Shown here: piece after piece, positions 4,349-47,980 of the stretch
How positions within the stretch are numbered: the stretch's first letter is position 1
Layout of the letters: each line of letters starts with the position of its first letter
IMG/VR virus record: IMGVR_UViG_3300050821_001542
Coordinates: 1 to 48,501 of that record
Source of the DNA: a virus
Direction: 5' to 3' (one strand)
DNA length: 48,501 nucleotides
The notes under the pieces: generated by a model
Seen by the model: the letters and a program-made list of their open reading frames with translations, nothing else
What the model was told of the DNA's origin: nothing
Databases searched by the model: none
Translations under genes and position numbers: made by a program

Positions 4349-4617
4349 CCGAAGCCCAGCGCACCGCCCTGTTGACCGCCTGTGCGTTTGCGAAGGTGTT
4401 TCTGGCCGCCGCCGACACAGAACTGCGCGGCGGACAGTCCCTGCCCCGCCTGGAGGCCCAGCTACAGTTCCTCGCGGCCTGCACGAAGCTGTCGGAGCTC
4501 GCCATCTGCGCCAACCCGCGCTGTGGGCACACGCTGGGGGTGCACCTTGGAACTGAAGCTGGCCTGTGCATGGATCGCAACTGCTCGTGCCGTGTGTTCG
4601 AGCCGGAGGACGAGTGA
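4345..4617 (+). CDS. Small protein with C-terminal Cys cluster, 90 aa
   Basis: GTG start overlapping the previous stop; the end overlaps the next ATG. The first ~55 residues are a helical segment. The last third holds CANPRCGHTLG...CMDRNCSC, six cysteines plus histidines that could bind one or two zinc ions. The same frame is open upstream from 4213 but lacks coupling there. Function unknown; it belongs to the run of zinc-ribbon genes that follows. Confidence 0.6.
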   Translation: MTEAQRTALLTACAFAKVFLAAADTELRGGQSLPRLEAQLQFLAACTKLSELAICANPRCGHTLGVHLGTEAGLCMDRNCSCRVFEPEDE

Positions 4618-4820
4618 TGTGGCGCAACTGGAAGGACGAGCCTCCGCAGATACCGTGGGCACCCGTGATTTGCTGGTGCGGCAATTCTGATTGTAATGGA
4701 TGGTGCAGCAGCATCTCGTATAAGCATGAGGTAGAAGAGCAGGACGGACAACGAATAGTGTGGCGACCCACAGGTATCTATCGTGAAGAGTTCTATCAGG
4801 TCACAGGACGTTGGGAATAA
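4617..4820 (+). CDS. Small Trp/Cys-rich protein, 67 aa
   Basis: The ATG overlaps the preceding stop by one base (TGATG). The protein has a compact cluster CWCGNSDCNGWC near residues 20-31 and several tryptophans, consistent with a small zinc-binding fold. No family recognised. Confidence 0.6.
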   Translation: MWRNWKDEPPQIPWAPVICWCGNSDCNGWCSSISYKHEVEEQDGQRIVWRPTGIYREEFYQVTGRWE

Positions 4821-4832
4821 GGAGGCAGGACA

Positions 4833-5090
4833 ATGATCGAGGGATACGCAGTAGGGCACAAACGCAGCAGCGGACGAATTGAGATCCTCGCAACCGCACG
4901 CACGCAGGACGAGGCGACGGCAACCATCACCGGATTGCGGGTGCTCTATCCGCCGCTCTATGCGGACACCGAGTTCACGGTCTACGAACTGCACGACCCG
5001 GCCAGCGATGCTGAGGTGTTCTCAGCGATCAACGGCAAGGATGCGCCAGTGCCGGCCCGCGAAGCCCTAACCCCCGAAGGAGAGAAATGA
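4833..5090 (+). CDS. Hypothetical protein, 85 aa
   Basis: AAGGAGG stands a few bases before the ATG. The protein alternates short strands and helices with no cysteine and no membrane segment. Its stop overlaps the next ATG (ATGA). Not recognised. Confidence 0.65.
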   Translation: MIEGYAVGHKRSSGRIEILATARTQDEATATITGLRVLYPPLYADTEFTVYELHDPASDAEVFSAINGKDAPVPAREALTPEGEK

Positions 5091-5272
5091 GCCACAAATT
5101 CACTTGCGCAGCCTGTCACGGTACATTCGTCAGCGAATCCAGCGATGAAGAGCGGATTGCCGAGTATGAAAAGCTCTTTGCCCAACCGATTGATGCAGAA
5201 CCTACCGAGGTTGTGTGCGATGACTGCTGGAAAGCGATGGGCTGCGACCGCATAGGAGCAGACATAGCTTAG
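5087..5272 (+). CDS. Zinc-ribbon protein, 61 aa
   Basis: Two paired-cysteine knuckles, CAAC (~8-11) and CDDC (~44-47), separated by an acidic helix. This is the usual layout of a single zinc ribbon. It is coupled by ATGA to the preceding gene. Possible roles include nucleic-acid or host-protein binding; none can be assigned. Confidence 0.65.
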   Translation: MSHKFTCAACHGTFVSESSDEERIAEYEKLFAQPIDAEPTEVVCDDCWKAMGCDRIGADIA

Positions 5273-5310
5273 GCCACCCAATGAACTCTAACCCCACAGG
5301 AGCATGAGAG

Positions 5311-8940: not shown

Positions 8941-9095
8941 CGACCGGACAGGAATTGATCCAGTACATAGTTGCGGAGCTTATGCTCAGGAGAGTAGTTC
9001 CGACGGATGCGTGCATCCTTCAGCACATTCGAGAGATGCGAGATGTATCTGATCTGAGGACGCAAGAGAAAGGACGCAACTCCGATGCAATGTGA
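8937..9095 (+). CDS. Hypothetical protein, 52 aa
   Basis: Start overlaps the previous stop (ATGA). The product is a helical, mixed-charge peptide (QELIQYIVAELMLRR...ILQHIREMRD). The end overlaps the following long gene by 11 bases. Supported mainly by its punctuation. Confidence 0.5.
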   Translation: MTTGQELIQYIVAELMLRRVVPTDACILQHIREMRDVSDLRTQEKGRNSDAM

Positions 9096-10749
9096 AGCGA
9101 CGACACTCTGCGAGTGCGGACATGAGTACCAGATGCACGCCCACCGCGATCTGGAGAACACTGCTGGCCGGTGCTACTATCCTAACGATGGATCAGCGAT
9201 GGGATGTAAGTGCTTGTGCTTTAGGGCCGCACAGAAGCTCACTCCGCTCACTCCTGCGCAGAACTTCGTCAGCGACAAGAAGTATCCAGACGGCCCCACC
9301 TGTACCGTATGCGGCGCGTTGCTGGTAGAGGAAAAGTGTCTATCCTGCGGAAGCGCACAGAAGCTCACAGTTCCCGCGCAGCTACAGGAAGCCCTCATGT
9401 ATCAGAAGTGCATTCACGGTAACGGGCCTGCCTGCCCTGAGTGTACCCACTTCCCTGCAACCCAACCGCCCTCTGCAAGCGAAGGGGATGGCGAACGGAC
9501 ATATCCTACTGGTGGTGATCCTAACGAGTTCTGCGTATGCAAGCATCACAAACTCAACCATGCGGCATATCTCGATATGCCCACAGCGTGCAACCAGACT
9601 AACTGTGATTGCGCAGAGTATCGTCCGGCGAATCCCTCCCCCGCTGTGGATGCTGCGCCCGATGCTAAGGAATTGTTCGACGTAGAGCCATATTCTCCGA
9701 TGGATGCTGTTATGGGAGCCTGCGGCATCCTCGACGTAATCAAAAGTGAGTGGGGAGAATCGTGGTCGGAGCATGACCAGAAAGTGCGGGCTGGCTTGAG
9801 TGCCATCCTAGCCGCTGATCTTGGTGGTCAGAAGCATATCGCTAAACTGGAGCACTATCTACAGGTCAGCAACGATGCACTGGCGATGCGATCACGGGAA
9901 CTGAACGAACTGGTCGCGCGCAATTCTGAGGGGTACAGGGAAGGCGGCGAAGAAACGTGTCAGGCGAAGCCCGCTGTGGATGCTGCGCCCGATCTCATCA
10001 AGCACATGACAGAGCGTTTCCTTGGCTGGCAGCTACCAGAGAACTTCAATCCAGACGGCGGGATTAGCTTTCAGCAATACGGAAATGTCGGCACCGAGCA
10101 TCAATACGAAAATGTCCCGACTGGAACCAATTTGCTGGACTACACGCAGGCCGAGGCGATGGTGCGCTATATGCTTGACCGTACTTCGCCGCACGAGTGC
10201 AATTCGGATTGTGGTTACTTTCCATGCCCTAAGATGCCGTGGTCTATGCCGAAGCCCGCTGTGGATGCTGGAGAGCCTTTGCCGCCACTGGATGATGAAA
10301 CACTCCGCAAAATAAAAGACTTCATAATCTCCAAATTGCTTGAACACAAGGCTACTGGAGAGCATGAAGGGCAACCGTATTCAGGAATTCAGTATGCATT
10401 AGACGTATGTGTTGATTTGGTGCGCGCTAATCGTGCGCTGGAGCAAAGACTGGCCGCGAGTGAGGGCGAGAAGCAGAAACTCATCCGCGAATCCGTGGCC
10501 GATTTCAATTCCACCGAAGATCAACTTGCGGAGCGAGACAGAAAGATTGCAGAACTTGAATCCAAACTGGCCGCCCTTACTGCCGCCATGACATTGATTG
10601 CCGCATTCAAGAACAAGACGCTCGTAGGGCACACAAGTAACGACGCATTGGGAATCGCTTATGCCGAAGGAGCCAACAAAGCATTCAATCAAGCGGCAGA
10701 AATTGCAAACACGGCTCTCGCTGCCGGGAAAGAGGATGCAGATGGCTAA
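9085..10749 (+). CDS. Mosaic zinc-module / coiled-coil protein, 554 aa
   Basis: The longest early protein, built of distinct modules. Residues ~8-46 hold a C-x-C-G-H...H...C...C-x-C cluster. Residues ~72-92 form a zinc ribbon (CTVC/CLSC). A second C-x-C-x-H...H cluster (CVCKHHKLNH...CDCAEY) lies at ~150-180. Residues ~310-370 contain the phage motif FLGWQLPENFNPDGGISF with YTQAEAMVRYMLD. The C-terminal third is a coiled coil ending in an alanine-rich tail. Modules are separated by linkers PAVDA (three times) and AQKLT (twice) whose DNA is repeated exactly. Each module occurs alone in other phage proteins as I recall. It looks like a string of small accessory genes fused by recombination at linker repeats. 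Function unknown. Confidence 0.7.
   Translation: MQCEATTLCECGHEYQMHAHRDLENTAGRCYYPNDGSAMGCKCLCFRAAQKLTPLTPAQNFVSDKKYPDGPTCTVCGALLVEEKCLSCGSAQKLTVPAQLQEALMYQKCIHGNGPACPECTHFPATQPPSASEGDGERTYPTGGDPNEFCVCKHHKLNHAAYLDMPTACNQTNCDCAEYRPANPSPAVDAAPDAKELFDVEPYSPMDAVMGACGILDVIKSEWGESWSEHDQKVRAGLSAILAADLGGQKHIAKLEHYLQVSNDALAMRSRELNELVARNSEGYREGGEETCQAKPAVDAAPDLIKHMTERFLGWQLPENFNPDGGISFQQYGNVGTEHQYENVPTGTNLLDYTQAEAMVRYMLDRTSPHECNSDCGYFPCPKMPWSMPKPAVDAGEPLPPLDDETLRKIKDFIISKLLEHKATGEHEGQPYSGIQYALDVCVDLVRANRALEQRLAASEGEKQKLIRESVADFNSTEDQLAERDRKIAELESKLAALTAAMTLIAAFKNKTLVGHTSNDALGIAYAEGANKAFNQAAEIANTALAAGKEDADG
9229..9368 (+). repeat. Direct repeat GCACAGAAGCTCAC (two copies)
   Basis: An exact 14-base repeat at 9229-9242 and 9355-9368, both encoding AQKLT in the same frame and followed by related Pro/Ala/Gln codons. 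It brackets the zinc ribbon of the mosaic protein. Confidence 0.8.
9640..10270 (+). repeat. Three exact linker repeats encoding PAVDA
   Basis: A 24-base sequence beginning CCCGCTGTGGATGCTG occurs at 9640-9663 and 9970-9993; its first 16 bases recur at 10255-10270. Copies two and three share 20 bases (9966-9985, 10251-10270). All are in frame, between protein modules. Confidence 0.85.
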
Positions 10750-20239: not shown

Positions 20240-20727
20240 TTCGTCTCCTTGATCGCTACCGCCGTTCCGTTCAACTGAAACGTCCCGTCGCTCATTAGGG
20301 AGAAGCACACAGTAGGCAATGCCGTTACGCACCACTGCTTGCTTACAGTCACCGGCGGCGCAGGCAAAGCCGGAACCGTCACTGGAGGCTGCGCTACGCC
20401 GTTGATCGTCCAGTTGATCGTCTGCTGCACGGCAGTCTCGGCAATCTGGAACACCTTGGCATATCGCGGGCAGGAATCGGGTGGGCGTCCATTCGCTCCA
20501 TCGGGGTAGTCCACCACGTTGGTCTGCACGGTCACAGTGATTGGAGCGTAGGCTGGAGGACTCGCCAGCGGGCAGGAGGGCAGAACGACCTGCTGGTAAG
20601 TATCTCCAGCCGGAACGGTAACGACCGTCTGTAGCGTCTGTTGCGTGGAGGGGACGATGGTGACCCACGTCTGCGCATGGAGCAGCGGTGCGAAGAGAAG
20701 AAGGGCGGGAATCAGTTTACGGTACAT
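20236..20727 (-). CDS. Exported small protein of the fibre cluster, 163 aa
   Basis: Sec signal MYRKLIPALLLFAPLLHA, cut probably after LHA; the mature part is beta-rich with four cysteines and Pro/Val/Thr-rich stretches (PAGDTYQQVVLPSCPLASPP), ending GTFQLNGTAVAIKETK. It overlaps the tail-fibre gene by 16 bases. No family recognised. It shares the N-terminal export signal with three neighbouring fibre-type genes. Confidence 0.6.
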   Translation of the reverse strand: MYRKLIPALLLFAPLLHAQTWVTIVPSTQQTLQTVVTVPAGDTYQQVVLPSCPLASPPAYAPITVTVQTNVVDYPDGANGRPPDSCPRYAKVFQIAETAVQQTINWTINGVAQPPVTVPALPAPPVTVSKQWCVTALPTVCFSLMSDGTFQLNGTAVAIKETK

Positions 20728-23700
20728 GCGATGTTCTCCGTTCCCCCGCTGGCTGTGGTTCCTACGTGGGTAAAGGTCACCGTGTTGGCACTCACGGCAG
20801 AGATGTAGGCAATGGTGGTCGCCGCCGCCGCCGTGGAATTGGTCGGCGAGAAGACGCAGTTCGATGATGACGTGACGCCCGTGATGGTTGCCGAATCCGT
20901 GGTCGCCGTCGTGAAGGTGACCGTTCCGCGCAGGGAGAAGACATTAGAAGCGGTGACGCCGGAGTCGGTAACATCATCCCCGCCACCGGAAGTCACCCAT
21001 GATGCCAAGTGGCCGTTGTTCAGAGCGCCCGAAGCGGTGGCGACGAACGCCCCTCCGCCAGTCACGCTATAGCTCGTCCCCCACGCTGAACCTGTTGACT
21101 TTGGTACGCCAGCGCCGGGATAGACCATGCCTGAAGCTGGGCAGTTAGTGCCCGTGGACTGACACACATTGTTGCCACCCACCGTCAGCGCTGTGCCGAA
21201 GGTGCCGGTTGCGGCCTTGAGCGTCCCGCTGGTGTCGCCAGCAGAGCCATTGCCAACATCAACCTTGCCCGCTGAATCACGCGATAGCCCTGTGTCCGGT
21301 GTACTCGAACCGGGTCCGCCCGCACCCGAAGACCAGCCATACACATAGGTGCTGGGCTGGGAGATGTAAGCATTTGTGATCGCGGTCGTCCATGCTACGC
21401 CATGCTTGCCGAAGTAAATTACGCCATCATTGGCGGCGGTGATGTCATACGCCGCACCGCCCGCCGCCTGATTGTTGATGAGCATTCCTACGGTGGGGTA
21501 GTTGCCCTGCAACTGGAAGGAGTCTGTGCCGGAAAGCTGCTGATTCAGGACGACTCCGGTTCCCGGAACAGCCGAAAGTACAGGCGTGCCTCCAGTGCCG
21601 ACTGTGAATGATTCGCTATCCGTAATCGTACTGCTGGTTGTCACGCCATCGTCGAGATGCGAGTTCGCAGTGATGGTTGTCGCGCTTCCCGCCTTGGGGA
21701 TATACCCCGCCGTAAGGCCGGAGATGCCGGAACTGCCGCAGCCCACACACCCACCGTCAGCATGGATCACCTGCTGGACACGCAAACCCCCGTTGGTGAT
21801 ATGGAACTCATCGTTCTGATAGTCCTGAATCAGATCCGATCCGCCCGCGTCCTCCGTAATAATTCCGTAGGTATGCTGCCACGATCCGAGATGGTTTTGT
21901 ATCTCGAACAAAGATCCGTGCGGTGCCGATTCTTGATAGATGTCGTCGTTGAAAACTCCTGGCGCAGAAGTACTGCCGGAGTTCGCGTCGATCAGGTTGG
22001 GCGGATCGACTCCAGTGCGTGCTCCGGTGCTGGGGTTGTAGTAAAGTCCCAGCCCGTTGTTGTTGAACATATTGAGAAGGGAACTCGTAGACGCGAATCC
22101 CTGTCCGCCAGCTCCCAAGACCCACGCGCTGCATCCCTGCACGCTGGGCGTGTCGCAGTTCTGGTAGTTGAACTTTATGTTGTGAATCGTCTTGTCGAGA
22201 TGCGGATTCAGCAGCGTCATGCTGCCCGTATAGGTGATGCCGCTCGGCGCAACGACTGTGCTCACCAGGCACTGCTCATAGGTATTGCAGGTCGAGGTGT
22301 TGTTGTACCAGATGCGCGCAGCCTGAAAGAGGTGAAACGCCGCGTTCGAGGTTCCGTCTGTGGTCTCCGGCTCCAAGCCTGTCTGCGGGATCGGAAACGC
22401 ATCGGTGTTGCCGAACGCTTCGGTCGTGTAAGGCAGGTTAGTTCCGTCCACGGAAGGCAGGCCGATGTAGGCGGTGTGCTGCCCGTTCAGACTCAGGTTA
22501 GTGTCGAACCCGATGATGTAGCAGTGTCCCTTCGAGACGTAGACGTTGCCAACGATAGGGAAGACCAAGGGCAGATGGATCGTCTGTGTTGGTGAGCTTC
22601 CTGTAGCCGATGTGGTTACAGATTCCTCTACGAAGCCTTGAGTGCCGTTGCCGACGACACAGACCGAATCTCCGCCGCCGGAAGTGAATGACCCCGACCC
22701 GCCGGAGAACGTAATCGTCTCTGCGACGGGCGTACCGAAGCTGGTGTTCGTGTTGACCGTCGTGCTGGTGGAATAGCCGTAGACCGAGGTGGTCGGAAGC
22801 GTGGCCCCTGTGGTCGAAAGCTGGTTGATCCACGTCACCGCGCCCACGGAGAATGCCGTGCTCGCGCCGTTGAATTCGCCTGTGGTCGCCGTATTTCCGG
22901 TGATCCACTCGCCCGGTCCAGGAAAGCACTTCTGGCCCGCAATGTTGAAGCCGCCGCAACTGATGCCGCTGAAGGTCAGCGTGTCGGGGCTGCTGGTATG
23001 CGTCGAGAGTGTCAGTGTCGGGATCGGCCCTTCCCCGCCATACTGATATTCATGCTGTCCGCACTGATCGCTGGCCCACATGCAGTCGCCGGACATGGCG
23101 AAATATTCGTCATGGTTCAGACAGTCGCCCACACCCGAGCAAGTGAAGTACCCAGACAGTGCGGCCTTTCCGCCGGCCGTCGCATAATTCGTCGCCCAGA
23201 ATTGCAGCGTGTCGTATTTGCCTTCGACAAAGTAGTTGTTGGAGGTCTGCCCGCCTGCCTTGCCCGAACTCTGACCTAGAGAGAAATACCCAGAGAGCGA
23301 TGGATTCCCGTTGGCCCACGTCGCGTCATTGAAGGCCGCAATGTTTCCGAATCCTCCTCCGCCGAAGTAGCCCGTCGATCCGGGGGTATAGTTTAGATTA
23401 CTGGCGCGGTTTCCACTGGTAGCACTATAGGGAATTGCCGTCGTATTGCCGATGGGAGGTGGAGATGCGAAGGTCAGGTAGCTTGCGATAGGAGAATAAG
23501 CGCCACCATCCTGCGATAGGTTCGCAATCGCCGAAGCATCGGTATTGATGGATGCCTTTCCTGACGTAGGGGACGGTAGCCCTCCGCTGGTCGCAGGAAG
23601 GGTGACCTGTGTTCCCGTGCCGGTGAATGTACCGCTCTTGGCGGTGAAATTTCCGCTCCCGTCCGTGGTGACGCTCGAATCTCCGCCAACCGTCGTAGTG

Positions 23701-24356
23701 CTGCCGGCGTTCGGGTAGTACCCCATGCTGTATTGCGTGGCAGGGTTGACCGTGCCGCTGCCGGGTGGCGTCAAGTACGTCCCGGCGTTGCTGAGGAACT
23801 CAGAGCCGTTTCCGGTGTTGATGGGAAGAACGTGCGAGGAATCCGTGCTCACGTGAATGATGGGCGTGGTCGTCGGATTGACCACGTTGCCCTGAAAGCC
23901 TCCGTCGGTTGCCACTGACACCGCACTCACCCCGCCGGGGGAGGTGCCGTTCTTGCCCAACTCCTGTGCGATCTCGGTCAGCTTATCCAGCCCGTTCTCA
24001 ATCGACTTCTGCGGCGTAGGCATGTTGTCGGTGAACACCGTGGTCTGCGTGAGCGGAGTGGTACGCGAGACGACTAGCGTCTGCGTGTTGGGGCACGCGG
24101 AGTTTAGCGTGACGCTGCCCCCGTTGTCGTAGTTGTTATTGACCGGCTTGACGGCGTAGGCGCTCGATGGCAGGACGACGCTGTTCTGGGTCACCGTGAT
24201 CGCATTGGCCGCGCTGACAGAGAACGTGAAAGGATACGGGCCTACGCTGCCCGTGCAAGTGAAGGTCACGCTCGTGGCTTGGCTGACGACCGTGGCATGG
24301 GCAGAGGCCGCGAGTACGAGGGTGGCGAGTGCAGCGATCTTCGAGAAGAGACGCAT
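20712..24356 (-). CDS. Giant tail-fibre protein with T7 gp17-like N-domain behind a signal peptide, 1214 aa
   Basis: The ATG at 24356 is placed nine bases after AGG; an ATG two codons upstream (24362) is the alternative. Residues 1-21 are a Sec signal (MRLFSKIAALATLVLAASAHA). Next, to ~residue 140, comes a domain patterned like the N-terminal virion anchor of T7 tail fibre gp17: FTFSVSAANAITVTQN, LVVSRTTPLTQTTVF, then the helix IENGLDKLTEIAQELG. The rest is Gly/Ser/Thr-rich beta-repeat fibre with TGTFGTALTVGG-type repeats near the end. The gp17-like part would attach to the tail; the signal peptide ahead of it is unexpected. Confidence 0.75.
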   Translation of the reverse strand: MRLFSKIAALATLVLAASAHATVVSQATSVTFTCTGSVGPYPFTFSVSAANAITVTQNSVVLPSSAYAVKPVNNNYDNGGSVTLNSACPNTQTLVVSRTTPLTQTTVFTDNMPTPQKSIENGLDKLTEIAQELGKNGTSPGGVSAVSVATDGGFQGNVVNPTTTPIIHVSTDSSHVLPINTGNGSEFLSNAGTYLTPPGSGTVNPATQYSMGYYPNAGSTTTVGGDSSVTTDGSGNFTAKSGTFTGTGTQVTLPATSGGLPSPTSGKASINTDASAIANLSQDGGAYSPIASYLTFASPPPIGNTTAIPYSATSGNRASNLNYTPGSTGYFGGGGFGNIAAFNDATWANGNPSLSGYFSLGQSSGKAGGQTSNNYFVEGKYDTLQFWATNYATAGGKAALSGYFTCSGVGDCLNHDEYFAMSGDCMWASDQCGQHEYQYGGEGPIPTLTLSTHTSSPDTLTFSGISCGGFNIAGQKCFPGPGEWITGNTATTGEFNGASTAFSVGAVTWINQLSTTGATLPTTSVYGYSTSTTVNTNTSFGTPVAETITFSGGSGSFTSGGGDSVCVVGNGTQGFVEESVTTSATGSSPTQTIHLPLVFPIVGNVYVSKGHCYIIGFDTNLSLNGQHTAYIGLPSVDGTNLPYTTEAFGNTDAFPIPQTGLEPETTDGTSNAAFHLFQAARIWYNNTSTCNTYEQCLVSTVVAPSGITYTGSMTLLNPHLDKTIHNIKFNYQNCDTPSVQGCSAWVLGAGGQGFASTSSLLNMFNNNGLGLYYNPSTGARTGVDPPNLIDANSGSTSAPGVFNDDIYQESAPHGSLFEIQNHLGSWQHTYGIITEDAGGSDLIQDYQNDEFHITNGGLRVQQVIHADGGCVGCGSSGISGLTAGYIPKAGSATTITANSHLDDGVTTSSTITDSESFTVGTGGTPVLSAVPGTGVVLNQQLSGTDSFQLQGNYPTVGMLINNQAAGGAAYDITAANDGVIYFGKHGVAWTTAITNAYISQPSTYVYGWSSGAGGPGSSTPDTGLSRDSAGKVDVGNGSAGDTSGTLKAATGTFGTALTVGGNNVCQSTGTNCPASGMVYPGAGVPKSTGSAWGTSYSVTGGGAFVATASGALNNGHLASWVTSGGGDDVTDSGVTASNVFSLRGTVTFTTATTDSATITGVTSSSNCVFSPTNSTAAAATTIAYISAVSANTVTFTHVGTTASGGTENIACTVN

Positions 24357-24388
24357 TGGCATTTACCTGTACTCGTAGAGGATGACCG

Positions 24389-27009: not shown

Positions 27010-30000
27010 TCATCTCCTGATCGAAAACTTCTTTGTCGCGCTGCGCTTGGTCATGCCGGGGAGAGTCTGCGGCTTAGTCGATGCTCCGCCTGATGCGCCT
27101 TCGTGGATTGTAGGCGACCCCATAGAATCCGCCGCGAGTTCCAGTAGATCGCGGTACGAGTATTCGTGGTCGGGATCGGTGAGCGCCTGCGTTACCGTCT
27201 CGACGGCGCTGACTCCGGTGATCGGTACTACGCGCCCAGCGGCGTACTCGCCCTGCTTCTCGGCCTTCTTCGGGCCGCTGTCGCTGCGCTTGTAGATTGG
27301 CCTTCCGGTCTCGTCCTTATTGAACGCCAGCCCCATCCCAGCACCCAGTAGCGGAGCCGCCTTGCTGACGACGAACTCCGCCGTGCCTGCAATCGGCGAG
27401 TCGCTCGCGACTCGCTTTGCCAGCGTCATCGCGTCCTTCGGAGCGCCTGCAAAGAACCAGTCCGCGTACATCTCTTTGCCGTGCTCGTCAGTGCCGAGGT
27501 AGACGCGATCCATGTTCTTCGTGTCCGAGGGATCATACTTGCCGCCGATGGCGATGCTCATGGCGGCGGTCATGGCGATGCCCGTGGCAAACGACTTTGC
27601 CCAGAACATCCGCGCAGCAGCTCCAGCAGGGCCGCCCTCGAATGCGTACTTCCCGGTGAGCACATTGGAGAATGTCCAATCCGGGGCTAGCAAGAAGAGG
27701 CGGCTCACGTCGCGCACCGTTTTTCCGGTTCCAAGCACGTCCCAGTTCAGGCCACCGTAGGCCGAGTTGACTTCCTTGGCGATGGAACGCCGCGTGGCGA
27801 AGATTTCCTCGTTCGTGGCCTCTGGGTGCTTCGAGCGCCACGCTGCTTCTTTCAGTGAGGCGTCCATCACCTTGAACTTGCGCTGCACCACGTCGAAGGT
27901 GAACTCCGTGGTGGCCTTGAACGCCGCGTCTACCTGCTTGACCACAGGCGCGTTGGCGAGCTTGTCGAAGCCCGTAGGGATGCTCGACTTGCTCAGGCCC
28001 TCATATGCCTCGTAGGGCGTCTGCGTCTTGGCTGTGGTGAGGCCGTCTGCTGCCCACTCGCGCTCCGCCGAAGCGAACTCCGGGGACTTCAGGTCGGACG
28101 CCATCGCCTTCGTGAACTCGGTCAGCCCCATGTTGTTGAACGCGGTGATGCCGAGCGCCTTGACGTGGAACAGCGACAGTCCCAGTTCCAGCCCTTTGAC
28201 GTAGCCCTGCGACTTCAGCAGCGGTGCCAGCTTCGTGCCCGCCAAGCCCTGCTCGAACAGCGGGCGCATGGCGTCGGCAACTTCCTTCGGCACGTAGAAG
28301 GACTGCTCGCGGGCCTGCAACGCGCGCTGGCCGGGTGCCATCTCCACCCAGCCGTCCGGGTGGCCGTCCTGCGTGCCGTATTTGCCGAGGTCGGTGTTCT
28401 TCAGTTCGGTCGCCAGCAGCTTCGTCGCCGCCACGGTCGCGTGGCGGTCTCCGTACACCGATAGCGCATCGACGGCGTTCACCGTGCGGGCGTCGAGCCT
28501 GCCGGTCTTGAGCGCGTCGAGGATCGTAGGGTAGGCACGCTCTTTGGCGAACGGCGTGCTCTTGGCCATGATCGCGCTGCCCGTGCCCTTCGGCTGCTCG
28601 CCTTCGAGAATCCGCGTGAGGATGTGGGGCGAGTAGTGCGACGGGTCAATGCTCGACTCCATGAAGCCGAGTTGCCTGCCTTCGTCGAGCGCGGCGGTAT
28701 AGTAGGCGGTCAACCGCTGGTCGGCCTCCAGCAGTTCAGGCGAGGGATTTATGGCCCGCTCGATGGACGGGATCAGCCCCTTCAGGCGTTCCGAGTCGCC
28801 GTTGCGAATCTGCTCCAGATCGGCGGCCAACTTGTCGGGCGTGCCTTTGTAGTCCCGCAGGATGCTCAGGGCCTCCTGGTCGCGGTAGTCGGGGATCAGC
28901 CGCTTGATCTCGTCCCGCAGTTGCGTGGTCGCCGCGATGCGGGTGTCCCGCTGGCCCGCAAACAGCGTCCGCAGCACCTCCCGGCCGTAGCCCTTGCTGG
29001 CGAGTCCAGCCTTGATCTTATTCAGCCCCTCGCGGGCGGCTGCGAGGCGCTGGGCGTTCTGCGGCGCTACGTTGGCGATGGTCGGGTCGCCCTCCGCCAG
29101 AGAACGCGCCTGCGCCCTCTGGCGCGCAGCCTGATAGTCCTCCGCGTGGAGTTCGGCCTGCTTGTCGCCGTCCTGCTCCTGTAGCCACAGTTCGTGCGTG
29201 TCAGGCTCGTTGTCCTTCATCCACTTGCGGGCTTCCATGCGGGAGAGGAACTTGCCGTCCGGGGTGACGAAGCCCCGGCCTGACTTCATGGCGGAGCGGT
29301 CGTACAGGTCGTTGATCGAGAGGGGCTTTTCCTCGCCTTCCTCGGATGTTCCACGTGGAACATCGCCCGATTCGATGGCCTGAGACTTCAGTTCCCACGC
29401 CTTATCAATCACTTCCTGCTCGTGGATAGCCGGATTGTCCAGCACGTCGTCAGCCTTCGTGGGGTCGGCCTCAAGCTGCTCCAGCGACACGGGTTTCTTC
29501 GCCAGCACGCGCTCGGCCACGTCCGCGTGGCTCTCGTCCTCGTCACCTTCGATGAAGCCCGCTCCGAAGCCGTGCTGCACCTCAATCGCGGGCCTGAGTC
29601 CCGGCGGGGCGTCAGGCTTTACCGGGGGCTGCGCGGCGAGCCGTGTGGCCGTCTCCTCCGGCGTGGTGCCGTCCTTGGCGTACACGTCCATCGTGGCCTG
29701 CTGTGCCTCTCCCTTGCGCAGTGGCAGGCCGTGGGCGATGAGGTTCAGTGGGATGATGAGCGCGGCGTTGCCTGCAAAGTCTTGGGCGCTGGGCAGCTTG
29801 CCGTCGAGCAGGTCGGCAGCGGTCGTCAGGGCCGTCGCCTGGTACAGTCCCTTGACCGCTGTGGCAGCAGGGCCAGCCAACTTGCCCACGGGCAGCCCGC
29901 CAGCCAACTCCGTCGCAGCGCCCGTCACCGCGCCCTTGGTTGCAGCCCACGTCACTGCCCCGGCGCGCCGCAGCAGGTCAGGAAAGTCCTTCACGTCCCC

Positions 30001-30564
30001 GTTCTTGATGCCCTGTACCAGCACTTCACGCAAAGCAGCCGGCAGAGCAAACCCGCCCGCCGCCGCACCGAGTCCCGCACCGGTGATGTTGCCCGCGATC
30101 GGCACCTCCGACCCGGCGGCTCCGCCCGCCGCACCCCCCGCCAGTCCGCCGGCAATGTAGAACGGGAGGTCAGCCACCATCTCCGTCACGCCCGACACGA
30201 ACTTGTCGAGCAGGCCGGGGTTGCGAATCTCCTCCGGCATAGCCTCGCGGTGATGCAGGCCGAAGATGGACTCTTCCCACCCCACCTTCACGTCGTTCTC
30301 GATGGTTGGGTCAAGATCCATCGAATCGTAGTCTCCTCCGATGGAGCGGAGTTGCGTGTCGATCTCGTCCCGGTTCTGGTACGCCGTACCGGGGTCGATC
30401 TTCAGCATGTTGCCGTGGACGCCTGCCTGCCACGCATCCTGTCCGGTGTTGGGAGGGAGTGTTCCACGTGGAACACTGGCCGGGGTCACCGTCTGCCAGT
30501 CGTCCGGCTGGACAGTCTCCCAATCGGTCGGGTCGGCTACTGCGGAGGCTTGCCGGGGTGCCAT
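27010..30564 (-). CDS. Large internal virion / DNA-ejection protein, 1184 aa
   Basis: ATG 30564 has GGAGGGAAGAC upstream. Residues ~120-260 carry Gly/Ala-rich membrane-seeking segments (FYIAGGLAGGAAGGAAGSEV, GAGLGAAAGGFALPAALREV). The middle is highly charged and helical. The C-terminal third contains MFWAKSFATGIAMTAAMSIA and a long soluble tail. Size, position after the tail-tube and internal-core genes, and hydrophobic patches fit ejectosome proteins such as T7 gp15/gp16. No transglycosylase motif seen. Two 20-bp palindromes are embedded in the gene (29345-29364, 30458-30477), both encoding VPRGT. Confidence 0.7.
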   Translation of the reverse strand: MAPRQASAVADPTDWETVQPDDWQTVTPASVPRGTLPPNTGQDAWQAGVHGNMLKIDPGTAYQNRDEIDTQLRSIGGDYDSMDLDPTIENDVKVGWEESIFGLHHREAMPEEIRNPGLLDKFVSGVTEMVADLPFYIAGGLAGGAAGGAAGSEVPIAGNITGAGLGAAAGGFALPAALREVLVQGIKNGDVKDFPDLLRRAGAVTWAATKGAVTGAATELAGGLPVGKLAGPAATAVKGLYQATALTTAADLLDGKLPSAQDFAGNAALIIPLNLIAHGLPLRKGEAQQATMDVYAKDGTTPEETATRLAAQPPVKPDAPPGLRPAIEVQHGFGAGFIEGDEDESHADVAERVLAKKPVSLEQLEADPTKADDVLDNPAIHEQEVIDKAWELKSQAIESGDVPRGTSEEGEEKPLSINDLYDRSAMKSGRGFVTPDGKFLSRMEARKWMKDNEPDTHELWLQEQDGDKQAELHAEDYQAARQRAQARSLAEGDPTIANVAPQNAQRLAAAREGLNKIKAGLASKGYGREVLRTLFAGQRDTRIAATTQLRDEIKRLIPDYRDQEALSILRDYKGTPDKLAADLEQIRNGDSERLKGLIPSIERAINPSPELLEADQRLTAYYTAALDEGRQLGFMESSIDPSHYSPHILTRILEGEQPKGTGSAIMAKSTPFAKERAYPTILDALKTGRLDARTVNAVDALSVYGDRHATVAATKLLATELKNTDLGKYGTQDGHPDGWVEMAPGQRALQAREQSFYVPKEVADAMRPLFEQGLAGTKLAPLLKSQGYVKGLELGLSLFHVKALGITAFNNMGLTEFTKAMASDLKSPEFASAEREWAADGLTTAKTQTPYEAYEGLSKSSIPTGFDKLANAPVVKQVDAAFKATTEFTFDVVQRKFKVMDASLKEAAWRSKHPEATNEEIFATRRSIAKEVNSAYGGLNWDVLGTGKTVRDVSRLFLLAPDWTFSNVLTGKYAFEGGPAGAAARMFWAKSFATGIAMTAAMSIAIGGKYDPSDTKNMDRVYLGTDEHGKEMYADWFFAGAPKDAMTLAKRVASDSPIAGTAEFVVSKAAPLLGAGMGLAFNKDETGRPIYKRSDSGPKKAEKQGEYAAGRVVPITGVSAVETVTQALTDPDHEYSYRDLLELAADSMGSPTIHEGASGGASTKPQTLPGMTKRSATKKFSIRR
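29345..29364. promoter_or_regulatory. parS-like 20-bp perfect palindrome, copy 1
   Basis: GATGTTCCACGTGGAACATC is a perfect palindrome. Its 16-bp core TGTTCCACGTGGAACA (29347-29362) differs from the bacterial parS consensus TGTTTCACGTGAAACA by one symmetric base pair, a change known in natural parS sites of some bacteria. It encodes DVPRGT in the host gene. Confidence 0.6.
30458..30477. promoter_or_regulatory. parS-like 20-bp perfect palindrome, copy 2
   Basis: AGTGTTCCACGTGGAACACT, again a perfect 20-bp palindrome with the identical 16-bp core at 30460-30475, 1113 bases from copy 1. Codon phase is the same (SVPRGT). Flanking bases differ from copy 1 yet keep the symmetry. Confidence 0.6.
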
Positions 30565-44344: not shown

Positions 44345-46060
44345 CTAAGACCTCATTGCGAGTCCAGCATACAACACCGATCCCTGCGGCTTACTATTTT
44401 CTCGTGCCAGCACCGAGCGCACGAACTCCTGGTCGAGTTCCGGCTGGGGCCGGGAGTAGAGCGGCTGCTCCAGCGCGGCATATCTCACGCAGTCGCAAAA
44501 GTCCTTGTACGCCTCTTCGGGTTTGTCGGTGCCTTCTTTCCACGAGTAGTTGCTCATATGCTGGAAAGGCCCGCCCTCGCCGGAGGTCTTCTCGCGCGCG
44601 AACATCATGCCGGGAAACTCTTTTCCGCGCACTGCTGAGTAGTGCGGTGCGAGATACTCTTTCACCCGCTTGTGGCCGAGCGTCACGTCGCCCGGCGCGG
44701 AGCACGAGTGGACGATGTGCTTCATGCCCGCCTTCTCTAGCTCTTCCTCCCATGACGGAAAGTGCTCGCCGTGCAGTGGCTTCTCCGCCGCGGCGAACTT
44801 GACGTCGATGATGAGCATGGCCGGTTCTTTGTAGTTGTGCTCGGCGCGCTTCACCCTGACTTGACGACAGATGGACTCGATGTTTCCTGAAGGCCGGAGG
44901 TAGGCGTACCAGTAGATTCGGTTGGCACTCTTGCCGTTGACGATGATCTCTTCGGGAGAAACCGCGCCGAACAGCCAGCAGCACGGACGCGCGTCGTGTG
45001 GGTCGAGCACCTCAATCCGCATCCAGTCATTCGGGATGGTGAAGTCTTCGTACAGATGCTTCTCGCGGTCGAGCATCTTGTAGACCAGCCCTGAGAGGTG
45101 CTTCCATTTTCCTTCTTCACGGGCTTCCCTTTCGTCTGGGTCGGTGATCTTCTTCAGGTAGTTCTCGATGCCCGCGCGGGGCAGGAATCCCATCACCTGT
45201 CCGCACTTCGGGCAGTGGTCGATGGGGCGCACCTCGCCAGCCTTGAGCCTGTCGGGATCGTTCTCTGGAATGGTGGTGTCGCAGGCGCGGCACCAGTCCT
45301 GGCAGTTGTCCCACGTCGAGCCGCGAAAGACTGCGATCTCCTGGTCCTCGCCGCCGTTGTTGAATGCGTGCAGCGAGAGCAGGTCGTAGATGTATGCCTC
45401 TTTGAGAGGCGTCATGGTGTACCAGCTCGGCCCGTTGGTGCTCATCAGGCCGCGCGTGGACGCGGTCAGGATGTCGCGGGGCGGCGGCTCGTCAAAGTGA
45501 ATCCAGTCGAGCACGGTGCCCTCGTAGCTCTCGGCTGGCTGCACATACGACCGGAAGTGGATGGTTGAGCCGCAGGGCTTGCCGTTGAAGTCGTTTTGCA
45601 GGTGGATCGACTTGATCGACCCGTCCGAGTAGCGCGTCACCGTCACGCCGCAGTATTGCGGGATGAGCGCCATGAACTCAGGCTCGATGCGCTGCGTCAG
45701 CGTTTGGCCGGCAACCTCGCAACCCACGATGCCGTTGTTCGGAACGCGCACGGCGATCTTATAGTCCGGGTCGGTCTTTTCGAGCCACGGCCGGAAGCCC
45801 ATCGCGTGCGCAATGTCCTCCGCTACACCGATGGTTGTCTTGCCTACCTGGTTGCCGCTCTCGAAGATGCGCGTGCGCGGCGTGCGGCCCCGCTTGTTCT
45901 TGATGCGGATGAACGGCTCCTGCGCGCGGTTCATGCGCAGGTAGAACAGCTTGAGGTAGCTGGTGACCTTTTCCTCGACCGCTGCCAGCGATGCAGGGTC
46001 GTTCTTGTCGAAGTTCTCTGGGATGTCGAGGAGGGGCTTGGTGGTGGCTTTGCGCGCCAT
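44345..46060 (-). CDS. terL: Terminase large subunit
   Basis: 571 residues. The N-terminal ATPase has Walker A GNQVGKTT (69-76) after RTRIFES and Walker B VLDWIHFDE with D190-E191; the C-terminal half should be the RNase-H-like nuclease (LIIDVKFAAAEKP as a candidate acidic strand). An inserted zinc-type cluster lies at ~253-288, CQDWCRAC followed by HCPKCGQ. It translocates DNA into the procapsid through the portal and cuts it. No small subunit gene is adjacent; the HTH protein at 828-1310 is a candidate. Confidence 0.9.
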   Translation of the reverse strand: MARKATTKPLLDIPENFDKNDPASLAAVEEKVTSYLKLFYLRMNRAQEPFIRIKNKRGRTPRTRIFESGNQVGKTTIGVAEDIAHAMGFRPWLEKTDPDYKIAVRVPNNGIVGCEVAGQTLTQRIEPEFMALIPQYCGVTVTRYSDGSIKSIHLQNDFNGKPCGSTIHFRSYVQPAESYEGTVLDWIHFDEPPPRDILTASTRGLMSTNGPSWYTMTPLKEAYIYDLLSLHAFNNGGEDQEIAVFRGSTWDNCQDWCRACDTTIPENDPDRLKAGEVRPIDHCPKCGQVMGFLPRAGIENYLKKITDPDEREAREEGKWKHLSGLVYKMLDREKHLYEDFTIPNDWMRIEVLDPHDARPCCWLFGAVSPEEIIVNGKSANRIYWYAYLRPSGNIESICRQVRVKRAEHNYKEPAMLIIDVKFAAAEKPLHGEHFPSWEEELEKAGMKHIVHSCSAPGDVTLGHKRVKEYLAPHYSAVRGKEFPGMMFAREKTSGEGGPFQHMSNYSWKEGTDKPEEAYKDFCDCVRYAALEQPLYSRPQPELDQEFVRSVLARENSKPQGSVLYAGLAMRS

Positions 46061-46407: not shown

Positions 46408-46644
46408 TCACTCTACAGGCACCGGGAATCCGTCGGGCCGAATGCCGATCCTGTGCTTGCGGCAAATCTCCGCGATGGCCTTGCGGGGTTTGGGGTGCGG
46501 CACGTTGTGGCCGTGCTCCCAGTGAGTCACCGTGTGCGTGCTGACGTTCACGCGCTCGGCAAACTCCTTCACCGTGATCCCCAGAATGGCCCGGATCACT
46601 CTGATTCTTACGGATTCGTCTACCAGCTTCACGGTATAGAGCAT
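46408..46644 (-). CDS. XRE-family HTH regulator
   Basis: A single HTH domain: VRIRVIRAILGITVKEFAER then VNVSTHTVTHWEHGHNVPHP, a Cro/C1-type helix-turn-helix with recognition helix HTVTHWEHG, then AIAEICRKHRIG. The start is uncertain: ATG 46644, GTG 46632 and GTG 46659 are in frame and none has a ribosome site. The promoter at 46640-46667 would start RNA almost exactly at GTG 46632, which suggests a leaderless mRNA. A conserved 26-bp site lies just upstream. It is the only classical repressor-like gene in the window. Confidence 0.75.
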   Translation of the reverse strand: MLYTVKLVDESVRIRVIRAILGITVKEFAERVNVSTHTVTHWEHGHNVPHPKPRKAIAEICRKHRIGIRPDGFPVPVE

Positions 46645-46667
46645 ATCACAGATCGTCACCGGGTCAA
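46640..46667 (-). promoter_or_regulatory. Sigma70-like promoter of the XRE gene
   Basis: TTGACC (46662-46667), a 16-base spacer, TATGCT (46640-46645), read leftward. The predicted RNA start falls at about 46632-46634, coinciding with a GTG codon in the regulator frame. Confidence 0.5.
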
Positions 46668-46855
46668 GTGTTCGATTCCGTGGATATTTGTCTTGTACTA
46701 GACGGGTTGACTACGATGATACCCGGCGGAGGGGCGCTCTTTCGAATGGCCGAGTTCAGGTCGGCTCCCCGTCCTTTCAATCTCGCCCGTCGGCACAGGG
46801 CCTTATGTGCCTCCATCGAATTCTTCCAATCAACTGCATGATCTCTACGCTTCAC
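46664..46855 (-). CDS. Doubtful small basic ORF, 63 aa
   Basis: GTG 46855 with AAAGGA upstream opens a basic frame (MKRRDHAVDWKNSMEAHKAL, then CRRARLKGRG). Its 3' end contains the conserved regulatory site and the -35 box of the next gene, and composition is not clearly coding. It may be non-coding DNA. Confidence 0.25.
   Translation of the reverse strand: MKRRDHAVDWKNSMEAHKALCRRARLKGRGADLNSAIRKSAPPPGIIVVNPSSTRQISTESNT
46673..46702 (-). promoter_or_regulatory. Conserved ~26-bp site, copy 2
   Basis: Read leftward, AGTACAAGACAAAT (complement of 46686-46699) is identical to 2595-2608, with further similarity outside. It lies 5 bases upstream of the -35 box of the regulator promoter. Confidence 0.55.
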
Positions 46856-47196
46856 CTAAGATCCTTTCAAATAACAAATGCCAGATTCCATAGAGCTTGA
46901 GCAAACGAAAAGCAGGGGCATATACCTACCCACTCTCCGCTGCGAGAAGGCCACAGTATGCCGTGATCCGTCGAGTCTCGCGTTCGGTCTACTAAGGCCT
47001 CTTTGCTTACGCACGCCTCCCGCGGAAGGACGCTCCTCTGACGACTAGAGGCCACCCGTAGACAGGTAGCAGGAGCCGGTTCCTCTCTGGGTTACGAACC
47101 CATTGAGCGCAATGCAGCGGTCGCCGCGCACGAATGCGTGAGGGAGTTTTCAGGCCGAATTTTCGGGGAAACTTCCATAGTGTGAGCTTCGACCTC
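46856..47196. other. Non-coding stretch with inverted repeats
   Basis: No convincing gene on either strand; short frames here have unnatural composition. The stretch contains GGCCTCT (46996-47002) pairing with AGAGGCC (47047-47053), and GGGTTACGAACCC near 47089-47101. No tRNA cloverleaf was found. It may hold an origin, packaging site or structured RNA. Confidence 0.4.
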
Positions 47197-47270
47197 TTGA
47201 ATTTAGCATCGAAAGGTGTAGAATGCAAGTGCGGGGTGACGCCAGCACCCCTTTCCATAGTGGCTTCGAC
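47173..47270 (+). repeat. Direct repeat around the small-RNA promoter
   Basis: TTCCATAGTG at 47173-47182 and 47253-47262, each followed by GCTTCGAC (47186-47193 and 47263-47270). One copy is just upstream of the -35 box, the other inside the RNA, 80 bases apart; the first has three extra bases between the two halves. Confidence 0.75.
47197..47224 (+). promoter_or_regulatory. Sigma70-like promoter of the small RNA
   Basis: TTGAAT (47197-47202), a 16-base spacer, TAGAAT (47219-47224). The predicted start is near 47231, at the first base of the GCGGGG stem. Confidence 0.65.
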
Positions 47271-47333
47271 ACCTACTTGGGACGCCCCGCAAAATCGTGA
47301 AGCCCCCGGTCATTGCCTTGCCGGGGGCTTTCT
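47231..47333 (+). ncRNA. Candidate ~100-nt structured RNA or leader
   Basis: Bounded by a promoter and an intrinsic terminator, with no ORF. The 5' end GCGGGG (47231-47236) can pair with CCCCGC (47285-47290), closing a long domain. Alternatively GGGGTG (47233-47238) pairs with CACCCC (47246-47251) in a local hairpin. The two pairings share the G-run and exclude each other, as in attenuators and riboswitches. It could be a free small RNA or a leader controlling rightward genes beyond the terminator. No known RNA family was recognised. Confidence 0.55.
47300..47330 (+). terminator. Intrinsic terminator, probably bidirectional
   Basis: AAGCCCCCGG (47300-47309) and CCGGGGGCTT (47321-47330) form a perfect 10-bp GC-rich stem with an 11-base loop, followed by TTTCTG overlapping the stem base and preceded by AAAATCGTGAA. 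Confidence 0.85.
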
Positions 47334-47337
47334 GCAT

Positions 47338-47372
47338 CTGACAGCGTGTCAGTGTAATATCCTATCGTGCAT
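47338..47372 (+). promoter_or_regulatory. Operator-like palindrome and shared box
   Basis: CTGACA-GCG-TGTCAG (47338-47352) is followed by TAATAT (47355-47360), a possible -10, and TATCGTGCAT (47363-47372), which is identical to 1381-1390 in the early control region. Likely a regulated promoter for the following small gene. Confidence 0.4.
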
Positions 47373-47415
47373 ACCATCCGCCTCGCCCTCGTTCTCTCGC
47401 ACCGTCAGCTCAGTA

Positions 47416-47592
47416 ATGGACAAGATGGAAGATTTGCTCTCCCTGCGGGATGAGCGCGACTTCATGGAGGGGCTTACGGAGTTTCTGGAGCTTACGCCCG
47501 GCGAGCCGCGTTTTGAAGCGGCTTTAGCTGTTTGGCGCTCTTTGCAGACGCAACCTTCTCATCGACGAAGGCCGCGAACTCTGCGACCCTAG
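47416..47592 (+). CDS. Hypothetical protein, 58 aa
   Basis: ATG 47416 lacks a good ribosome site, but the residues are protein-like (MDKMEDLLSLRDERDFMEGL, then TEFLELTPGEPRFEAALAVW). The basic end overlaps the convergent gene by 101 bases. Moderate support only. Confidence 0.4.
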   Translation: MDKMEDLLSLRDERDFMEGLTEFLELTPGEPRFEAALAVWRSLQTQPSHRRRPRTLRP

Positions 47593-47980
47593 CGTTCTTC
47601 TGGTGTTCGGTGAAGCCCAGACTGGTCAACTGGTCTTCAAAAATACCGGCGAGTTTCCGTAGGCCCGCTTCCCGCTTTGATTCCGCTGGCGACATTTTGA
47701 CCGTTACCTTATTCTTGCTCCATCGTGCTTTTGCTGCCTGCAAAGCCCTTGCCTGCCGTTCCTCTGGCGTCATCGTTACTAGACGCCGCTTCCCGCCGAT
47801 TTTACCCCCTTTACGTCCCATTGCTGACATCACACGGCTTATATCGGCCTTGCTCGTTGCACGGGCGCGGGCCGGAGGGGGTGCCGTAGAGCGCTCGACC
47901 ATTTGGAAAGCGGCTTGATTTATGTCGAAAGGTCTTTTGCTAATACGCTTTGGCATATTCAAAGTATGCCACAAGCCCAT
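47492..47980 (-). CDS. Basic, possibly DNA-binding protein, 162 aa
   Basis: ATG 47980 is preceded by GGGGAGG very close by; a second ATG at 47956 lies in a palindrome and lacks a ribosome site. The middle contains MGRKGGKIGGKRRLVTMTPE followed by ERQARALQAAKARW, the Lys/Gly-rich repeat plus basic helix found in many small phage, plasmid and bacterial proteins thought to bind DNA. The C-terminal half is helical (RKLAGIFEDQLTSLGFTEHQ). Function unknown. Confidence 0.65.
   Translation of the reverse strand: MGLWHTLNMPKRISKRPFDINQAAFQMVERSTAPPPARARATSKADISRVMSAMGRKGGKIGGKRRLVTMTPEERQARALQAAKARWSKNKVTVKMSPAESKREAGLRKLAGIFEDQLTSLGFTEHQKNARVAEFAAFVDEKVASAKSAKQLKPLQNAARRA
47952..47970. promoter_or_regulatory. 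Palindrome between divergent starts
   Basis: GGCATA-TTCAAAG-TATGCC. Each arm contains an ATG: 47956 leftward, 47966 rightward. It may be an operator or simply two facing starts that both read ATGCCA. Confidence 0.35.

Follow-up and report, generated by a model that had tools for sequence, protein, structure and literature searches.

Antisense RNAs of the P1 c4/P4 CI type are encoded on the same strand as their target and act within lysogeny. Processive antitermination leaders, such as put of HK022 and EAR, are also known. Excerpts of one paper name RNAs of phages P1, P7, N15 and P4 that are complementary to gene leaders (PMC7567579). According to excerpts of a second paper, IstR-1 is divergent from tisB and matches about 21 nt of the tisB 5′ UTR at a distance from the start codon, and RNA I and RNA II of pAD1 par owe their complementarity to direct repeats on one strand, converge, and share a terminator (PMC4147584).

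Here I describe a viral locus that combines several of these traits. As far as the excerpts go, its putative small RNA resembles the P1 c4, P4 CI and N15 immunity RNAs in being phage-encoded, complementary to the leader of phage genes, and type-specific. Unlike in P1 c4 and P4 CI, the leader lies on the minus strand and the small RNA on the plus strand. Unlike all three, the small RNA is divergent, has its own promoter and terminator, and faces a long structured leader of a late operon. Those three also belong to lysogeny, whereas neither a tyrosine integrase nor a resolvase was found here in eight of eight records, which may be incomplete; thus, a plain role in lysogenic immunity is not indicated. 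As in tisB/IstR-1 as excerpted, a divergent small RNA is complementary to the 5′ UTR of its neighbour, here judged by sequence only, but the target is a phage operon whose probable first ORF in the window encodes a hydrophilic peptide of 63 amino acids and no hydrophobic toxin. As in the excerpted account of pAD1 par, direct repeats on one strand make opposite transcripts complementary, but the RNAs diverge from overlapping promoters instead of converging. The leader resembles put and EAR in being a putative structured 5′ leader at the head of a long operon; it matches no Rfam family. Neither the leader nor the arrangement was recognised in the literature searched, most subscription journals being outside its coverage.

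The locus lies in an IMG/VR virus record of 48,501 bases, analysed whole and called the window (W) below. The first-pass annotation had described an independent promoter-RNA-terminator unit, and all of its named parts are present (Table 1). The −35/−10 pair of the rightward promoter has 9/12 matches, the terminator stem is perfect, and the pairings of both alternative hairpins were verified. The T run after the terminator stem is short and interrupted (TTTCT); this terminator was picked up by a custom scan and is missing from the list of the standard scan. The full small RNA has a minimum free energy of −47.4 (z = −3.3; 1 of 200 shuffles was as good). In folding of partial transcripts, the local hairpin dominates where the end lies short of 47290, and likewise where it falls at 47305-47325. 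In the full-length RNA, the distal stem wins (−23.3 vs −20.0 kcal/mol over 47230-47296). The direct repeat, one copy of which lies upstream of the RNA's own promoter, is identical at 16/16 positions apart from a 3-nt insertion. That the RNA falls outside known classes was borne out, with no match of Rfam 15 on the window at the gathering threshold; relaxed Rfam scans of the focal region and its homologues gave weak matches alone (E 0.17 to 9.8). Phage and plasmid records, searched for the nearest DNA neighbours, held no relevant match. The unit had also been called free of ORFs. Since a mechanical ORF of 152 aa (47134-47592, plus strand) crosses the region, this is wrong to the letter and holds only in the sense that there is no convincing gene; nothing suggests a coding role for that ORF. 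No relative was found of another ORF at 47492-47980.

Table 1. Predicted RNA, promoter and protein features around the small RNA unit of the window
Feature	Position	Strand	Description or basis
Terminase large subunit, then structural genes	44345..46060	-	Profile matches
Small helix-turn-helix protein	46408..46659	-	HTH_3, HTH_23
Probable first ORF, 63 aa	46664..46855	-	GTG start, GAAAGGA upstream; ORF list and direct reading
Structured leader RNA, ~338 nt	46856..47193	-	Conserved; 5′ end predicted at C1
Short hairpin CCGAAAATTCGG beside C1	47155..47166	-	Recurs in homologue alignment
Repeat copy C1, CCATAGTG-(TGA)-GCTTCGAC	47175..47193	.	Complement is the leader's predicted first 19 nt
Rightward (small RNA) promoter, TTGAAT-N16-TAGAAT	47197..47224	+	Sigma-70-like; promoter scan
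Leftward (leader) promoter, TTGCAT-N17-TAAATT	47200..47228	-	Promoter-like pair overlying the rightward one
Small RNA	47230..47333	+	~105 nt predicted; 5′ end placed from promoter
Closing (distal) stem of small RNA, GCGGGG/CCCCGC	47231-47236/47285-47290	+	Pairing verified
Local alternative stem of small RNA, GGGGTG/CACCCC	47233-47238/47246-47251	+	Pairing verified
Repeat copy C2, CCATAGTGGCTTCGAC	47255..47270	+	Within small RNA; pairs with leader 5′ end, 3-nt bulge
Terminator stem of small RNA, perfect 10 bp	47300-47309/47321-47330	+	

Across the loci, the conserved trait is the repeat. Its significance lies in complementarity with the start of a putative leader RNA, transcribed divergently, which the first-pass annotation had missed. 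Read leftward, C1 is the predicted beginning of the leader, and C2, as a copy of C1, gives the small RNA a segment complementary to that beginning. The other end of the leader closely precedes a start codon with a ribosome-binding site (GAAAGGATCTTAG-GTG at 46855 in the window, by direct reading). The product of the first ORF (MKRRDHAVDWKNSMEAHKALCRRARL...) is hydrophilic; as it is not hydrophobic, a type I toxin was rejected as the target. Same-strand ORFs including a terminase follow the leader in the window, L005, L008, L038, L040, L041/L045, L042 and L029 (L numbers denote related viral loci). The terminases downstream of the leaders belong to several PHROG families: phrog_2 in the window, phrog_3717 and phrog_2 in L042, phrog_979 in L045, and phrog_979 and phrog_2 in L060; that of L040 has a weak match to phrog_5989 only. 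In L060, leader and terminase share a strand but are separated by about 2 kb containing an opposing ORF. In L062, the late operon is not preceded by the leader, and terS does not lie in the leader direction. Elsewhere in the window, large ORFs without a Pfam or PHROG match lie at 9085-10749 (+), 20712-24362 (-) and 27010-30564 (-), and L044 has an ORF (4490-5305, minus strand) with many repeats of a ADAEWEKADAEWKK-like motif.

The related loci were collected with the terminase large subunit of the window as query, which gave 32 viral loci. Homologous sequence upstream of terL was found in L005 and L008, and the unit of L029 has an identical GCGGGG...CCCCGC layout. DNA-motif scans added L038, L039, L040, L041, L042, L044/L045, L060 and L062. 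With duplicates, cut contigs and chance matches removed, the final set has 12 loci, including the window, that are readable from C1 on. Left uncounted were L007 (duplicate of L008), L044 (duplicate of L045), L043 (partial copy of L038), L034, L035, L037 and L061 (contigs of earlier loci), and L064, which is cut before C1. Pattern matches in L036, L059 and L063 were dropped as chance matches without a unit, and 51 Vibrio phage matches were dropped because only the terminator end of the L038 query aligned (35 of 491 bases). A motif scan of GTDB genomes found nothing, and the single phage-like contig picked up by a terL scan, in a Neptuniibacter MAG, has no match to the leader model R1 described below.

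The predicted two-RNA architecture is present in 11 of the 12 readable loci; L039 has the leader, but a convincing small RNA with a clear C2 was not found. The first-pass annotation had regarded absence of pairing from homologous loci as counting against its RNA. Pairing is kept: a closing stem is possible in 11/11 small RNAs with differing letters, for example GCGGGG/CCCCGC, TGTTCG/CGAACA and GAGGGGTTG/CAACCCCTC, although in L040, L042 and L060 only partial transcripts show it, the full stretch having a minimum-energy fold that lacks it. The suggestion of an attenuator or riboswitch, in which the two hairpins would control the RNA's own terminator and the downstream sequence, fared less well. 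A local-to-distal switch, as such a device would need, is predicted in the window, L029, L041, L045 and L062 (5/11) but not in L005, L008, L038, L040, L042 and L060 (6/11). The terminator stem of the window does not overlap the competing arms, and the sequence 3′ of the terminator differs among the window, L005 and L008 (by eye), so that there is no conserved downstream gene for it to regulate. Since it also leaves the C1 copy unexplained, a self-contained attenuator is improbable. The terminators of the small RNAs of L041 and L045 are weak or absent. A GCCTCC motif lies 3′ of the hairpin in the short-type small RNAs of L005, L008, L038, L040, L042 and L060, and GGAGGC occurs in a conserved hairpin of most R1-type leaders; a second contact between the RNAs or mimicry of the ribosomal anti-Shine-Dalgarno sequence is possible. 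Another terminated RNA-like unit with GCCTCC (TTGCCTCCTAG before a strong hairpin) was seen on the antisense strand of L008, about 3.6 kb upstream of terL. This possible second antisense unit has no C1 partner.

The leader itself appears to be a structured RNA. A conserved stretch of about 290 nt (46878-47165 in the window) adjoins the small RNA unit. Eight sequences, L008 and L029 not among them, were aligned, and this one set was folded as either strand. As minus strand, the consensus reaches −47.1 kcal/mol with 44 pairs, of which 21 have changed on both sides; as plus strand it is worse (−28.6 kcal/mol, 36 pairs, 18 changed on both sides). Only the minus strand accommodates an invariant G-U pair and a C-G/U-G alternation, which would become C-A mismatches in the other sense. 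For the central part, a model was drawn by hand on the minus strand with one pseudoknot (CGGCC with GGTCG). Its paired cells amount to 91.6% vs 76.9% in shuffles, a percentage that is partly built in because the model was drawn on these very sequences. Changes on both sides were found in 16 of 36 pairs vs 9.7 in shuffles, and in 41 cells vs 14.2 (0 of 500 shuffles), and this support was lost when the partners were slid by one to three columns. Single-sequence folds of the whole leader are unremarkable for the window (z −0.4) and L029 (z −0.2), modest for L005 (z −2.4) and L008 (z −2.0), and lower on the opposite strand in L008 (z −3.0) and L029 (z −1.2). Since they do not favour one strand consistently, the case for the leader strand rests on the alignment, whose covariation supports a predicted fold on the minus strand.

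A covariance model (R1, 140 positions) was built from the central part, and its matches include its own eight sequences. In the window, one of these eight, it matches 46984-47123 (minus strand) with 138.8 bits. Scores of at least 98.8 bits were obtained in the window, L005/L035, L038, L039, L040, L041, L042, L044 and L045, and the cut copy L043 scored 49.3 bits. R1 was undetected in L008, L029 and the other terL relatives examined, and likewise in the leader cores of L060 and L062. Among whole records, 7 of 17 have a match and 10 do not; thus, many terL relatives seem to lack the leader. A second kind of core, unlike R1 and with the motif GATCGCTCNNTGTCGAGCGTTGCC, lies in the leader region of L029, L060 and L064; L062 has a similar unit in which that motif is missing. 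A pac or cos site was rejected as an explanation of the conserved stretch because RNA pairs including G-U are conserved and the leaders lie near terminases of different families.

The omega RNAs of IscB-type systems have a 5′ guide followed by a scaffold. The leader resembles this layout, with a variable 5′ segment of about 20 nt and then a conserved scaffold of about 290 nt with a pseudoknot. It might thus be a guide RNA with the complement of C1 as its guide and the small RNA as target or decoy. This is very unlikely indeed: the TnpB-type zinc ribbon PF07282 is absent from 8/8 records (the control was positive in 11/14), the Rfam scans gave no HEARO match, and the leader runs directly into an operon. 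RRXRR (PF14239) was not found either, its control being silent as well.

The complementarity was assessed across loci. In the window, the duplex of C2 with the leader 5′ end has −32.8 kcal/mol. A blind scan of 888,236 bases on both strands found 577 double-promoter sites, among which the repeat of the window had the top score and that of L029 the second. Some unrelated double-promoter sites score 25-27, and single-locus repeat scores of 20-27 arise by chance; thus, single loci with such scores prove little. Over the 11 loci, the mean local alignment score is 25.4 for own pairs vs 15.6 for crossed pairs, and the mean RNA duplex energy is −29.2 vs −18.7 kcal/mol. None of 50,000 permutations matched the own-pair fit by alignment or duplex, nor did any of 20,000 in an earlier run on 9 of these loci. 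The own duplex is the best in its row in 10/11 cases and in its column in 6/11. L038 alone is weak by alignment, as 68 of 300 of its shuffles were as good.

The sequence of C1 and C2 is different in each locus. Since the two change together between phages, each small RNA would act mainly on its own type. Such coordinated change also suits a second reading, in which C1 and C2 serve as operator sites in the DNA through which a regulatory protein, such as the helix-turn-helix protein of the leftward operon, controls both promoters, with the RNA similarity as a by-product. The tandem copies flank the overlapping promoters, and the gene lies early in the operon of the window, with similar ORFs seen by eye in L008, L038 and L040, but none was noticed by eye in the L045-type operon. 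The copies are, however, not palindromic, and they differ by a central insertion of 1-3 nt in 5/11 loci (the window, L029, L005, L008 and L040), which is awkward for a single protein site. C2 is, moreover, inside the hairpin region of the small RNA. The transitions from C1 to C2 lean towards wobble-compatible ones, 17 keeping a G-U pair vs 6 breaking it, besides 24 transversions; this excess counts inherited changes repeatedly, several being common by descent to L005, L008, L038 and L040. Operators are thus unlikely.

A promoter scan found 4 promoter-like sites in 2.5 kb vs 0.7 expected, and the two promoters of the window overlap head to head. The rightward −35 element starts with TTG in 11/11 units, as read by eye. 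A leftward promoter-like pair ending 6-7 nt before the complement of C1 is present in all 11 loci with a small RNA. Its score averages 8.45 of 12, whereas random places average 4.68 (sd 1.16), and no set of 11 places among 20,000 resampled ones scored as high; the ends of C1 were set by eye before this test, which makes it somewhat favourable. Could the small RNA be an activator of the late operon, protecting the leader 5′ end or opening an inhibitory fold? The own-pair evidence would serve this equally, as the sign is unreadable from sequence. Repression is the better fit, however, as the overlapping promoters set the two RNAs in competition, and the divergent antisense RNAs in those excerpts repress (PMC4147584). 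An activating role is possible but unlikely.

A natural experiment is provided by G007, the phage of L041 (also L057), and L045. Their structural genes share 99.98% identity across 4,577 bp, and a stretch of 537 bp that reaches through the leader shares 98.1%. The identity ends at the hairpin beside C1, and both C1 and C2 differ between the two phages. G007 has two successive C1-promoter-small RNA units of different types (L057 9414-10360). The second is a complete L045-type unit that has lost its leader to some 0.8 kb of inserted sequence in which small ORFs lie. G007 thus seems to have gained a new type and kept the old small RNA, although an assembly error is possible.

Taken as a control circuit, the locus would be a toggle of two RNAs, in which a trans-acting antisense RNA controls the leader of the late operon, mainly of its own phage type; I give this a probability of about 0.65. 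The overlapping opposed promoters would produce two RNAs. The leftward one would be a folded leader of about 338 nt running from C1 into the packaging and structural operon, and the rightward one a terminated small RNA of about 105 nt carrying C2. C2 being a copy of C1, the small RNA could pair in trans with the opening 10-20 nt of the leader. Made while the rightward promoter prevails, it would bind the leader as its 5′ end emerges and keep the late operon low, possibly because the leader is then terminated early, cut by RNase III or misfolded. While the leftward promoter prevails, the small RNA would be scarcer, hence a toggle. What the sequences support is the pair of putative RNA genes, the leader's strand and fold, the complementarity matched within loci, and the promoter positions. 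I infer transcription, pairing in the cell, repression as the sign, and the timing.

A wider proposal, more tentative, is a type-specificity lock made of RNA only in apparently non-integrating phages. The small RNA might exclude, or give immunity to, co-infecting phages whose leader matches it, and C1 and C2 might evolve as lock and key. Types might be switched by a new C1-promoter-small RNA cassette with the old small RNA kept as a weapon (G007 has two), and the leader might be a new class of structured RNA driving the late operons of unrelated phages. The compensatory design of C1 and C2 makes the toggle directly testable. A leader absent from Rfam is common to late operons with terminases of different families, and the locus itself supplies a putative antisense RNA that recognises a different sequence in each phage. 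If the toggle reading is true, late genes would be switched by RNA, and superinfection typing might be RNA-based too, in phages without a detected integrase.
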